From: Bacilli bacterium
GTDB lineage: Bacteria; Bacillota_I; Bacilli_A; Izemoplasmatales; Hujiaoplasmataceae
NCBI GenBank assembly: GCA_016935815.1
Contig: JAFGQH010000048.1
Span: 1-45,349 of the forward strand
DNA length: 45,349 nucleotides
Direction: 5' to 3'
The notes below the pieces were generated by a model. The model did not search any database. It had not been told where the DNA came from and was given only the letters and a program-made list of their open reading frames with translations. Below, piece after piece: positions 1,521 through 5,870 of the stretch (positions are counted from its first letter, which is position 1; each line of letters begins with the position of its first letter). A program made the translations under genes and the position numbers.

Positions 1521-1554
1521 TTTTAACCTTTTTTTAATGTAGCCATGATATCAT
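1521..1554 (+). promoter_or_regulatory. Predicted response-regulator box and promoter of the ferric-reductase-like gene
   Basis: TTTTAAC (1521-1527), CTTT, TTTTAAT (1532-1538) is a direct repeat with an 11-base period. It is followed after ten bases by a -10-like TATCAT (1549-1554). The same arrangement occurs twice between the two-component system and the cytochrome b5-like gene (5009-5026 and 5043-5060). An 11-base direct repeat overlapping the -35 position is typical of OmpR/PhoB-family activators; assignment to the neighbouring regulator is inference. Confidence 0.6.
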
Positions 1555-1579
1555 GTGGTATAAAAGGAGTAAAGACTAT

Positions 1580-2908
1580 ATGAAAACAATCAAAAAAAAT
1601 CTCGGTGCAATCTTGTTCATTGGCACCATATTGATAATAAATACGATATTATGGGTAGGTAGAATTCAGTCCGCATATTTGACTTCAGAGGTTCTCCAGA
1701 CTTCTCTAATCGGATCTCTGCTTTTGATGGGATTTTTCCTAGTCTTCTTGTTGTCAACCAGAATGAATTGGTTGGTGAAATTGTTCGGTGGACTGGAAGG
1801 ATTATACTTTTGGCATAGAACTTTGGCAATTGTTACAACAGCGCTAATCCTGGTTCATGCCGAATTTGCCGTAAGCAACGCTTTGTCCTACAATGTATCC
1901 ATTCCACTTTTGGGTTATGCTGGTTCAGCAGGAGAATTAGCACGAAACGGATTTTTCCTGCTTGTCTTCGTGGCTCTACTGGCGAAATTCATCAAGTATG
2001 AACACTTTCGTTTCATTCATCGATTATTGATCATCCCATATTTCATATCTTTATATCACAGTTTTTACTCATCTTGGGTAAATCTATTCCAAATGGATGC
2101 ATTGTCATTATGGATGCTCCTCACATCCGCAATCGGTCTTGGTTCATCTCTTTATATGATATTGCTTTATCCTAGAACCGCCTTTTCTCACCGAGGAATC
2201 ATTGAATCCAAAACGCTTCTGACCGAAAGCATCATTGAGTTGAAAATAAAAATGGATCGCAATTATCGATTCAAACCAGGTCAATTCGCTTTTATCAAAA
2301 TCGATGCCGATGGCATCAGTGAATCCGCACATCCTTTCTCGATTTCCGGAAGCGATGGAAAGTATCTGTATTTCACGATCAAGTCTCTCGGAGACTTCAC
2401 CAATTCTTTGCTTCAAACAATGGAAACTCCGACAAGAATCCGAATCACTCGAGCATTTGGAAAAATGACATTTCGATCCAAACACACAAAACAAATCTGG
2501 ATTGCCGGTGGCATCGGGGTTACTCCTTTCCTTGGATATTTGAGAAGTGATAAAGAGTTGAAGTCTGATGTTCATCTATATTATTCTGTCAGATATGAGT
2601 CCGAGGCCGTTCACTTGGATACGTTCCAAATACTTGAAGAAGAACAAGAACATTTCAAATTCACACTGTTTGAAGCTTCAAAACAAGGCTTTCTGACAGC
2701 CAATGATCTTGATATCAATGATGATACAATCGTTTATATGTGTGGACCAAGACCAATGGCTTTGGCTCTTCACAAACAAATTAAAGAAATGTATCCTGGA
2801 GTTCGCATTGAGTTTGAAGCTTTTAGTTTCACGGGAACTTTGGTGGAAGATATTTTGAAATCCTATAAGAAGGTATTACGGAAACTAAAACCTGCTGCCA
2901 GAACATAA
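1580..2908 (+). CDS. Ferric-reductase-like transmembrane flavocytochrome (FNR-type oxidoreductase)
   Basis: Start chosen at ATG 1580 (MKTIKK), ten bases after AAGGAG; a longer frame from 1553 has no ribosome-binding site. The 442-residue product has an N-terminal ferric reductase-like domain of about five or six helices. Histidines at the expected heme positions occur in YFWHRTLAIV / LVHAEF and in RFIHRLLI / LYHSFY. A cytoplasmic FAD/NAD(P)H module follows: HPFSIS (FAD site), GGIGVTPFLG (nucleotide loop) and YMCGPRPMA near the C-terminus. The family moves electrons from NAD(P)H through FAD and heme b across the membrane to iron or other acceptors. It carries the same promoter box as the two-component genes downstream on the opposite strand and the b5-like lipoprotein, suggesting one redox regulon. 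Where heme would come from is not shown. Confidence 0.85.
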   Translation: MKTIKKNLGAILFIGTILIINTILWVGRIQSAYLTSEVLQTSLIGSLLLMGFFLVFLLSTRMNWLVKLFGGLEGLYFWHRTLAIVTTALILVHAEFAVSNALSYNVSIPLLGYAGSAGELARNGFFLLVFVALLAKFIKYEHFRFIHRLLIIPYFISLYHSFYSSWVNLFQMDALSLWMLLTSAIGLGSSLYMILLYPRTAFSHRGIIESKTLLTESIIELKIKMDRNYRFKPGQFAFIKIDADGISESAHPFSISGSDGKYLYFTIKSLGDFTNSLLQTMETPTRIRITRAFGKMTFRSKHTKQIWIAGGIGVTPFLGYLRSDKELKSDVHLYYSVRYESEAVHLDTFQILEEEQEHFKFTLFEASKQGFLTANDLDINDDTIVYMCGPRPMALALHKQIKEMYPGVRIEFEAFSFTGTLVEDILKSYKKVLRKLKPAART

Positions 2909-2940
2909 AAATAACATCCTCTAATCAGAGGATGTTATTT
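2909..2940. terminator. Bidirectional intrinsic terminator
   Basis: Perfect 14-base stem AAATAACATCCTCT / AGAGGATGTTATTT around a 4-base AATC loop, with U-rich flanks on both strands, between convergent genes. The TAA stop of the minus-strand histidine kinase overlaps the stem. Confidence 0.85.
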
Positions 2941-4297
2941 ATTTTTCGAGTGGCAGTCGGACTCTGAAAGTCGTACCTACATGTTCTTCACTAGACACAG
3001 TAATCTCACCGCCATGAATCCGAACAACCTCGCGTACCAACGATAATCCTAGCCCTAAACTATCTGTTTGGGTTCTGGATTCATCCGCCCGATAGAACGG
3101 ATCAAAAATCTTATCAATCTTTTCTTTTGAAATCCCGATTCCGGTATCTTTCACATCAATAATGAGATCATTGTTTTTGGCCTGAAATGAAATTTCAATA
3201 GATCCATTTTCAACATTATATTTGATAGCATTCGTAATCAAGTTTGAGAAAACGCGAATCATCATCGTTTGATTGCTACGGATTTTGGTCGAAAAGTTTG
3301 GTTTAATTATGTCTAAATGAATATCCTTTTTTTCAAGTTGAGGAGACAACGCATCTCCTGTCATTAAAATCAAATCGTAAACATCAATCAATTCCATATC
3401 GGATGTGGAGATTTGTTTTGTTCTAGTAATTTCCAATAATTGAGTTACAATATTCTCCATAAATGAGATTTGATTGATTATCGTATTGATTTCTTCTTTT
3501 GAACTGTTTGTTTTTGCTCGAACCAACATGTACTCTGCCTGAGCTTGCATAACTGCCAATGGGGTTCTTAATTCATGAGAGACATTGGAAGAGAATTGTT
3601 TTTCTCGGGTAATGGACTGTTCCACCTTGTCAAGCATCTGGTTAACCATCAATGCCAGTTCGTGAACCTCATCCTTCGATTCATCCAGAGGAATACGTTT
3701 TGTGAAATCTTCCTCTTCTTCAATCTGAGAAGCGGTTTGGTAAATGCGTTTGATCGGTTGGAAGGATTTTTTTATTATGAAGTACCCTCCGATTGCAGAT
3801 AGTAAAATGATGATTGGTGAAATCGCTCCTGCAATCCATATAATGTCTTGGAAAGATGTTGTGATGAAGCTCATATCATAAAGTCCTCTTAATACATATC
3901 CTCCGGGTAGACTGACATCATACACCAACCAGCTTAATCCATTAGCGGCATAGGTGTGAACCACATTCAATTGAATTGGATCTGTAGAATCAAATCCGCT
4001 GATTGCATTTCCGAATGCAACTTGATTGTTTTGATATACAAAGAAGTTGACTCCGTCATGATCGAAAGAGAATAAGCTATCGGAATCATCATCCAACCCT
4101 TCGACATAGACTGCATCATCCTCGATTTGTAGTGTAGGACTCACCTCATCCACAACAACGATAATTTGTCTTGTAGCTTGATCATTCAGGATTTTAGTGG
4201 CTGCGGTTTTCAAAAGGTAAAAATCAAGAAGGATCAATAGAGCAAAGAAAAATGTATATAATATAATAATTTTAAGTTTGATAGACCAGTGCTTCAT
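2939..4297 (-). CDS. Sensor histidine kinase of a two-component system (HAMP, HisKA, HATPase_c)
   Basis: 452 residues. A first membrane helix (about 8-30), an extracytoplasmic sensor of about 115 residues rich in Asp, and a second helix (about 153-175) precede a HAMP linker (about 176-230). The HisKA dimerisation box VSHELRTPLAVM places the phosphorylated residue at His241. The ATPase domain shows the N box NLITNAIKYN, the G1 box DTGIGIS and the G2 box GLGLSLV. This is the ordinary class I kinase layout. Its start overlaps the regulator's stop (ATGA) by four bases, so the two are co-translated. The stimulus is unknown, but promoter boxes connect the pair to a ferric-reductase-like gene and a cytochrome b5-like lipoprotein, so a redox, heme or metal cue is a reasonable guess. 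Confidence 0.92.
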   Translation of the reverse strand: MKHWSIKLKIIILYTFFFALLILLDFYLLKTAATKILNDQATRQIIVVVDEVSPTLQIEDDAVYVEGLDDDSDSLFSFDHDGVNFFVYQNNQVAFGNAISGFDSTDPIQLNVVHTYAANGLSWLVYDVSLPGGYVLRGLYDMSFITTSFQDIIWIAGAISPIIILLSAIGGYFIIKKSFQPIKRIYQTASQIEEEEDFTKRIPLDESKDEVHELALMVNQMLDKVEQSITREKQFSSNVSHELRTPLAVMQAQAEYMLVRAKTNSSKEEINTIINQISFMENIVTQLLEITRTKQISTSDMELIDVYDLILMTGDALSPQLEKKDIHLDIIKPNFSTKIRSNQTMMIRVFSNLITNAIKYNVENGSIEISFQAKNNDLIIDVKDTGIGISKEKIDKIFDPFYRADESRTQTDSLGLGLSLVREVVRIHGGEITVSSEEHVGTTFRVRLPLEK

Positions 4298-4968
4298 TCT
4301 TCCACCTTCATCACATACCCGAATCCACGAATCGTATGAATCAGTTTTTTGTCATGCCCTTCATCTATTTTTTTTCTTAAGAAACGGATATAAACATCTA
4401 TTACGTTTGAATATCCTTCATAATCGTAGTTGGAACTTACTGTTTCCAGTTTTTCACGAGATACGACAATTTCCTTATTCAGCATCAAATACTCTAAGAT
4501 CATATATTCCTTTTTGGTCAATTTGATAATCTCGTTATTCCTAGTCACTTCTTTGATTGTTCGATTCAAAATGAGATCGTCCAATTTCAATATCGTCTGT
4601 ATCTCTGAATCTCTTCTTCGAAGCATAGAACGGATTCTTGCCAGGAGTTCTTCAAATGCAAACGGTTTGACCAGATACTCATCCGCTCCAAGATCCAATC
4701 CCAACACCCGATCTTGGATGGTATCTCTTGCGGTCAATAATAATACCGGTGTCATATTGTTGTTTTGGCGCAACAACTTTAACAATTCCAAACCATTGAT
4801 TTTAGGTATCATAATGTCCAAAATAATCGCATCATACTCGGTATATTCAATCAAGTCAAGCGCGGTTTCTCCATCTGGAGCGTCATCCAAGACATATCCA
4901 GCTTCATTGAGCCTTTTTTTCAAAATTGAACGCAATTGATTTTGATCTTCTACTATTAAAAGCTTCAT
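4294..4968 (-). CDS. OmpR/PhoB-family response regulator
   Basis: 224 residues. The receiver domain (1-115) carries the acidic pocket VEDQ, the phosphorylation site Asp51 (ILDIMIP), the switch Thr79 (LLLTARD) and Lys101 (YLVKPF). A winged-helix DNA-binding domain (about 128-222) has the typical VSREKLE and IDVYIRFLRKKID segments. AAGGAG lies eight bases upstream of ATG 4968. The gene is first in the operon with the histidine kinase. Its promoter carries a direct repeat TTTTAAT-CGAA-TTTTAAT just upstream of TATAAT, predicting autoregulation. Winged-helix regulators of this family bind such head-to-tail repeats with about one-turn spacing. Confidence 0.93.
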   Translation of the reverse strand: MKLLIVEDQNQLRSILKKRLNEAGYVLDDAPDGETALDLIEYTEYDAIILDIMIPKINGLELLKLLRQNNNMTPVLLLTARDTIQDRVLGLDLGADEYLVKPFAFEELLARIRSMLRRRDSEIQTILKLDDLILNRTIKEVTRNNEIIKLTKKEYMILEYLMLNKEIVVSREKLETVSSNYDYEGYSNVIDVYIRFLRKKIDEGHDKKLIHTIRGFGYVMKVEE

Positions 4969-4993
4969 ATTATCGCTCCTTAGTTATACATAT

Positions 4994-5026
4994 ATTATAT
5001 CATTCAAAATTAAAATTCGATTAAAA
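4994..5026 (-). promoter_or_regulatory. Autoregulatory promoter of the two-component operon with direct-repeat box
   Basis: The minus strand has TTTTAAT-CGAA-TTTTAAT (5026-5009), then nine bases, then TATAAT (4999-4994). The repeat is the same as in the two plus-strand promoters at 1521-1554 and 5043-5076, in the same place relative to the -10. Confidence 0.65.
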
Positions 5027-5042
5027 TGCAATTTATTTTGGC

Positions 5043-5076
5043 TTTTAATCTTGTTTTAATATTCATTTCATACAAT
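5043..5076 (+). promoter_or_regulatory. Predicted response-regulator box and promoter of the cytochrome b5-like gene
   Basis: TTTTAAT-CTTG-TTTTAAT (5043-5060), ten bases, then -10 TACAAT (5071-5076). The box replaces a normal -35, as expected for an activator-dependent promoter. It lies back to back with the two-component operon's own box. Confidence 0.65.
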
Positions 5077-5105: not shown

Positions 5106-5870
5106 ATGAAAAAAATATTCTTTCTTACTTTAGTCGCATTATTCGGATTTGCATTGATAAGCTGTGATAACGTTTCGCCATCAAGCCAGACAACGACAGC
5201 AGTAGCTGATACAACAAGAGTTTTCACTCTATCTGAATTGTCACAATATACAGGAGCAAACGGATCAACAGCATACATCGCTGTCAATGGAATCGTATAT
5301 GATGTCACAAATGTCTTCGTCAACGGAACCCATCAAGGTTTCCAATTGGGTGGTACGGACGCAACTGCCATCTTCGCCGTTAGTCCACACAGCCAAGCAC
5401 TGCTGAATACATTGCCAATGGTAGGAGTCCTTGAGACCGCAACCTCATTGGTTAATACCAATGCTGTAACAACGACCACTACCGCTTCACCTACGACGAC
5501 TACTACGACTGCGTCTGGTACCCAGCAGACTCTACCGGTATTTACTTTAACAGAACTTTCACAATATACAGGGGCAAATGGTTCCACAGCCTATATCGCA
5601 GTCAATGGTGTCATTTACGATGTTACGAGCGTATTCACCAATGGAACCCATCAAGGTCTTCAATTGGGAGGTACTGATGCTACAGCAGCATTCGCATCGA
5701 GTCCTCACAGCATGTCCCTGTTGAACACTTTACCCGTAGTAGGAACACTTGAAGGTTATGCGCCAATCACTGTTGACACAACAACCACAACGACTACAAC
5801 ACAGAGTTCAACCAGTCATTATGACGATGATGATCATGACGATGACGATGATGATGAATATGATGATTGA
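5106..5870 (+). CDS. Lipoprotein with two cytochrome b5-like heme-binding domains and an Asp/His tail
   Basis: 254 residues. The signal ends in the lipobox ALISC (Cys20). Two nearly identical cytochrome b5-like domains follow, about 38-110 and 144-216, each with FTLSELSQYTG, AYIAVNG and YDVT motifs. Axial-ligand candidates are His77/His95 in the first domain and His182/His201 in the second (THQG and SPHS). This short bacterial type is common in clostridial secreted proteins. Thr-rich linkers (about 121-138 and 225-233) separate the parts. The protein ends with an extreme acidic tail with His (about 238-254) that could bind metal. It has AGGAGG before ATG 5106. The shared promoter box suggests it is made with the ferric-reductase-like flavocytochrome and could pass electrons or hold heme or iron on the surface; that partnership is inference. 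Confidence 0.82.
   Translation: MKKIFFLTLVALFGFALISCDNVSPSSQTTTAVADTTRVFTLSELSQYTGANGSTAYIAVNGIVYDVTNVFVNGTHQGFQLGGTDATAIFAVSPHSQALLNTLPMVGVLETATSLVNTNAVTTTTTASPTTTTTTASGTQQTLPVFTLTELSQYTGANGSTAYIAVNGVIYDVTSVFTNGTHQGLQLGGTDATAAFASSPHSMSLLNTLPVVGTLEGYAPITVDTTTTTTTTQSSTSHYDDDDHDDDDDDEYDD

Follow-up and report, generated by a model that had tools for sequence, protein, structure and literature searches.

Three copies of a direct repeat mark the promoters of a four-gene module in a 45,349-nucleotide stretch of DNA from a Bacilli bacterium (the window, meaning the whole stretch that was analysed). The module is best explained, with a probability of about two in three, as a self-contained and autoregulated two-component regulon that would activate an electron relay directed outward, composed of a NOX-family oxidoreductase and a cytochrome b5 lipoprotein. 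Because the arrangement of the boxes is kept in related bacteria, the sensor system very probably controls both its own synthesis and this small electron-transfer set.

The four genes and their promoters

The NOX-family gene (1580-2908, forward strand) codes for a transmembrane oxidoreductase of 442 amino acids with the Pfam domains Ferric_reduct, FAD_binding_8 and NAD_binding_1, which join a membrane-spanning ferric-reductase part to FAD and NAD(P) domains. Over its whole length the protein is homologous to SpNOX, the NADPH oxidase of Streptococcus pneumoniae: the SpNOX structures 8qt6, 8qq7 and 8qta are matched full length by a profile built from 13 relatives (best E-value 1.7e-113, with 8qt6 aligned over profile positions 5-415), and four heme-type histidines forming two pairs (H79, H93, H147 and H160) are invariant in the alignment of these relatives. 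The original prediction spoke of a ferric-reductase-like gene, for the product of which the full-length match to SpNOX makes bacterial NOX-family protein the better name. Full-length homology and the four conserved heme histidines are thus shared with SpNOX, from which the window enzyme differs in being tied to a dedicated two-component system and to a b5 lipoprotein; the accessible portions of the SpNOX reports give neither a regulator nor a partner (PMC5676040, PMC11564096).

The lipoprotein gene (5106-5870, forward strand) encodes 254 amino acids comprising a signal peptide that ends in LISC, two stretches assigned by Pfam to Cyt-b5 and an Asp-rich tail. Its axial histidine pairs (H76/H95 and H182/H201) are invariant in seven proteins, each of the two domains keeping both histidines. 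The nearest solved structures are 6vz6, which has in common with the window lipoprotein an HQG motif instead of the usual HPGG, and 6nzx, a small heme-containing b5 domain from a Hadesarchaea archaeon (PMC7096707). The number of b5 domains in these lipoproteins goes from two to several, with four or more in some relatives, and one relative (L050, from genome G045) contains at least five b5-type repeats in a single open frame of 540 amino acids; no relative was found in viral contigs. In two cases, G016 (L071, 5515-6876) and L126 (7418-8593), the b5 lipoprotein carries a fused PepSY_like domain, and the PepSY_like loci also include L114 (1675-2703) and L165 (300-1352). The C-terminus of the window lipoprotein is a long tail rich in Asp and His (5791-5870, HYDDDDHDDDDDDEYDD), whose character is kept in relatives and which may bind metal cations.

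The two remaining genes, on the reverse strand, encode an OmpR-type response regulator of 224 amino acids (4294-4968; Pfam domains Response_reg and Trans_reg_C), with orthologues in nine genomes of the order, and a sensor histidine kinase of 452 amino acids (2939-4297; HAMP, HisKA and HATPase_c), and they overlap by four bases. The kinase was characterized by alignment, hydropathy and a model of its sensor. It has two transmembrane segments and an extracytoplasmic sensor region that is strongly acidic (18 acidic against 4 basic residues among 131) and that fits no Pfam family. The predicted fold of this region (pLDDT 82) gave only weak Foldseek matches to Cache domains (best E-value 0.037, TM 0.34-0.39), so that a Cache/PAS-like fold is at best what the model suggests. 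The ExxE motif, known from PmrB, BqsS and other iron sensors (PMC12666569), is absent from the sensor of the window kinase and scattered among some relatives, and iron sensing through this motif was consequently ruled out for the window kinase.

A terminator-like hairpin of 14 pairs, located by a consensus scan and bidirectional (2909-2940, both strands), separates the convergent NOX and kinase genes, and the module therefore consists of three transcription units, each of them preceded by one box. The box of the NOX-family gene (TTTTAACCTTTTTTTAAT, 1521-1538, forward strand) reads TTTTAAC-N4-TTTTAAT and is followed after 10 bases by the -10 element TATCAT (1549-1554, forward strand). That of the regulator-kinase operon (TTTTAATCGAATTTTAAT, 5009-5026, reverse strand) lies 9 bases from TATAAT (4999-4994, reverse strand), and that of the b5 lipoprotein gene (TTTTAATCTTGTTTTAAT, 5043-5060, forward strand) lies 10 bases from TACAAT (5071-5076, forward strand), the -10 elements being assigned from the sequence and from aligned promoters. 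The last two boxes are divergent, with 16 bases between them. All three are exact matches to TTTTAAY-N4-TTTTAAT at the places originally claimed, and the predicted distance of 9 or 10 bases to the -10 element was confirmed (10, 9 and 10). The description of the boxes as identical goes a little too far, as position 7 is C in the first and T in the other two, and the N4 spacers vary among the three. A weaker third repeat was observed at 5065-5071.

Elsewhere in the window, positions 15281-35958 are occupied by a large carbohydrate-use cluster with a GH3 protein, two proteins with a Glycoamylase domain (PF10091), a LacI regulator, a GH94 phosphorylase and ABC-importer-like genes, which by its content would resemble a beta-1,2-glucan utilisation locus.

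The box and its probable regulator in related genomes

A pattern scan found three exact copies of TTTTAAY-N4-TTTTAAT in the whole window, in agreement with the original reading by eye, which noticed no other, while dinucleotide shuffles of the window contained 0.01 copies on average and never reached three. The same three sites are the only exact copies in all 1,412,040 bases of the organism's own assembly (1.41 Mb in 79 contigs, about 80% complete, the missing part of which could hold more boxes), in which a reversed control pattern had no exact match; the outcome that had been named as a refutation, a motif common genome-wide, thus did not occur. With one mismatch allowed, 11 matches were obtained for the box and 11 for the control pattern, which corresponds to background, and a wider regulon made of such sites was rejected.

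The module is found in the same four-gene layout in five of 80 relatives (G003, G004, G013, G022 and G030, the last two with the module split between contigs), whereas G016 has the regulator, the kinase and the b5 gene without a NOX gene. A scan of named genomes placed these relatives in Izemoplasmatales, and assemblies of Acholeplasmataceae (L121-L126 and L138) also hold the module, clipped in some of them by contig ends. The regulator promoter has the box in each of the 12 loci compared, with 12-14 of 14 positions matching, and the b5 promoter has it clearly in nine of ten; the NOX-promoter box is the least conserved of the three, being weaker (11-13 of 14 positions in most loci) and not recognisable in G003. 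At the b5 promoter of G003 (L064, 7757-7785), three tandem half-sites were observed, TTTTAAG-N4-TTTTAAT-N4-TTTTAAT. In all aligned loci the -10 element comes 10 bases after the b5 box, and in most of them it comes 9 bases after the regulator box. Between the two divergent boxes there are generally 16 or 17 bases, and 6 in G016, L122 and L138, a shift of approximately one helical turn.

Several comparisons link the box to the regulator encoded beside it. Among 90 genomes of the order, nine regulator orthologues were identified (56-100% identity, the next best match having 45%). The promoter of each of these orthologues contains the box (13-14 of 14 positions), and none of 20 paralogue promoters does (8-11 of 14). 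The orthologues of G058 and G048 keep the box, and there the divergent gene codes instead for a PepSY_like protein, without b5 according to Pfam in G058 and assigned by resemblance in G048. In G016, L126 and L123, both half-sites of the regulator box read TTTTCAT, and the recognition helix of the regulator has L or M where the genomes with TTTTAAT have F; this covariation, which covers about two lineages, is suggestive only. Taken together, the tracking of orthologues, the PepSY_like replacements and the covariation with the helix point to the encoded OmpR-type regulator as the protein that would bind the box. The proposal that this regulator is tied to the two redox genes gains support from the footprints across relatives, from the boxes following orthologues and not paralogues and from the conserved distance to the -10 element.

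The box could also be the site of another regulator, a general promoter element or a chance match, given that the motif is AT-rich, as is the genome, and that binding by the regulator is itself a prediction. We regard this as very improbable, in view of the scarcity of exact copies in the genome and of the partition between orthologue and paralogue promoters. It is further disfavoured by the NOX-b5 pairs that lack the regulator in order-level genomes, the promoters of which carry no box. A chance AT-rich motif in particular was rejected on the expected 0.01 copies in the window, the three exact copies in the genome and the nine of nine against zero of 20 promoters.

The regulon looks strictly local, confined to one locus as judged by these scans, and not a dispersed redox regulon. 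Exact sites outside the module in relatives, among those inspected, lie mostly inside genes or without a suitable promoter, and one genus has a recurrent coding match within a MarR-type gene. When the box was combined with a -10 element, 90 genomes yielded 42 sites, of which those beyond the module and the regulator orthologues are mostly scattered. In several genomes of one genus (L157, L159 and L162), a recurring TTTTCAC-N4-TTTTCAT-N10-TATAAT element lies after tuf and ahead of a tatD-like gene, with no visible link to this two-component system. Across 81 genomes, 22 occurrences of the extended pattern TTTTAAYCN3TTTTAAT were counted, 12 of them within the six modules (the estimate of enrichment used an assumed total of 126 Mb).

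Proposed mechanism and its alternatives

The regulatory mechanism is ordinary, since its box architecture is known from PmrA-type and CiaR-type regulators. CiaR recognizes TTTAAG-N5-TTTAAG, with predicted sites 10 bases before the -10 element and a final G that is essential (PMC3091779). The window system resembles the CiaR regulon of streptococci in its OmpR-type regulator, in the length and 11-bp period of the repeat and in the 10 bases to the -10 element, but the last base of the hexamer is T in all three window boxes, the recognition helix is VIDVYIRFLRKKI instead of the VVEVYVSKVRKKL of CiaR and the CiaR regulon has 15 promoters against a single local regulon here. The window box is then the same kind of site as that of CiaR and, because the essential final G is absent, not CiaR's own. 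The PmrA (BasR) box is CTTAAG-N5-xTTAAT (PMC3973317), with which the window box shares the half-site xTTAAT and the five-base spacing, and the solved full-length structures closest to the window regulator include BasR/PmrA. Differences from PmrA are the kinase lacking the ExxE iron motif and the targets, which are unrelated to lipid A modification. The locus accordingly combines features of OmpR/PhoB two-component systems with boxes of the PmrA/CiaR type, 11-bp-period repeats about ten bases from the -10 element.

In the CiaR and PmrA arrangement, a pair of regulator molecules attaches head to tail at the place otherwise taken by a -35 element. By analogy with these similarly placed sites, we infer activation and positive autoregulation. 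The position of a box alone leaves the sign of regulation undecided, and the regulator could instead repress the three promoters until a signal relieves them. Such repression is quite unlikely, as the boxes stand where activators of the PmrA and CiaR type bind, ten bases from the -10 element, and no -35 consensus is visible. In the favoured scheme of an activated electron relay, a stimulus outside the cell would act on the kinase, leading to phosphorylation of the regulator, which would bind head to tail on the 11-bp-spaced TTTTAAT-N4-TTTTAAT; the box, 9-10 bases upstream of the -10 element, would substitute for a -35 element, and the promoters of the operon itself, the NOX-family gene and the b5 lipoprotein gene would be activated. 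The NOX protein would then move electrons from cytosolic NAD(P)H across the membrane by way of FAD and two hemes. On the outer side, the membrane-anchored b5 lipoprotein would receive these electrons and hand them on to an extracellular acceptor, which might be ferric iron, an oxidant or some other redox partner. The computations establish the boxes, their confinement to this locus, their conservation alongside the regulator, the domain composition and the conserved heme ligands; regulator binding, activation, the electron path and the signal enter this best explanation as its inferred steps.

The proposed relay from the NOX protein to b5 draws on the conserved pairing of their genes, which are adjacent in seven of ten order-level loci even without the regulator, and it is therefore argued that they form a functional pair. 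Cytochrome c is reduced by SpNOX in vitro at a higher rate than oxygen, which may not be the physiological acceptor of the enzyme (PMC11564096), and this preference would fit a protein acceptor.

Searches of the seven module genomes (70-93% complete) detected neither a ferrochelatase nor subunit I of cytochrome bd, with positive results in the control searches, and incompleteness would be unlikely to hide one and the same gene by chance in all seven. Heme is probably imported, given the lack of a detectable ferrochelatase, unless a siroheme route is present, and these cells would nonetheless maintain two heme proteins under a single dedicated regulator. This probable import would also suit a role in heme acquisition or homeostasis, in which the b5 lipoprotein captures exogenous heme, the NOX protein reduces or uses it and the kinase senses heme or its lack through the same regulon, and the two to several b5 domains of the lipoprotein (four or more in relatives) could be read in the same sense. 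It is nevertheless considered unlikely, because a b5 domain that has two axial histidines typically serves as an electron carrier and is not known as a heme-uptake module, the module contains no heme transporter and the conserved partner of b5 is a redox enzyme.

The oxygen side of these data bears on another proposal, a response to oxidants or oxygen in which the NOX protein reduces oxygen (to superoxide, or so as to consume it), the two-component system senses oxygen or oxidants in the manner of HprSR-MsrPQ and b5 is an accessory donor for repair. SpNOX does reduce oxygen in vitro (PMC5676040, PMC11564096), and without cytochrome bd another way of oxygen disposal could be useful to these cells. 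The faster reaction of SpNOX with cytochrome c and the absence of an MsrP-like partner from the module make this improbable.

HprSR-MsrPQ of Escherichia coli is a two-component system controlling a membrane heme protein of the ferric-reductase superfamily and its extracytoplasmic partner. The MsrPQ system has been described (PMC9302797), and the window module is like it in placing a membrane protein of that superfamily and an extracytoplasmic partner under a two-component system. It differs in that a cytochrome b5 lipoprotein stands in the place of the molybdenum enzyme MsrP (no domain of this molybdenum methionine sulfoxide reductase type was found by Pfam among the module genes), and in that the membrane protein bears its own FAD/NAD domain. 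As a feature of flavin-based extracellular electron transfer (FLEET), each of the seven module genomes encodes one ApbE flavin transferase, on a different contig in the organism's own genome. Among the module genes themselves, no Ndh2, PplA, EetA/B or FmnA/B, the names of the FLEET gene cluster, turned up.

Significance for the family

In the literature searched, which was limited in scope, the combination of a NOX protein, a multi-b5 lipoprotein and a dedicated two-component system was not found, and the regulated module thus appears to be undescribed there. More tentatively, and at somewhat less than even odds, it may represent a previously undescribed trans-membrane electron-export module, with a NOX protein that does not produce superoxide, a b5 heme chain, scavenged heme and its own two-component switch, in small genomes with no detectable ferrochelatase or cytochrome bd.

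The in vivo role and the acceptor of the bacterial NOX class are described as unresolved (PMC11564096). The module links a bacterial NOX protein to a partner that is conserved and to a regulator dedicated to it, which makes the question of the electron recipient directly testable. For Izemoplasmatales and Acholeplasmataceae, in which few transcription factors have been characterised, the module provides a fully specified three-promoter regulon, and the variation of regulator and box from TTTTAAT to TTTTCAT suggests which residues may determine specificity.
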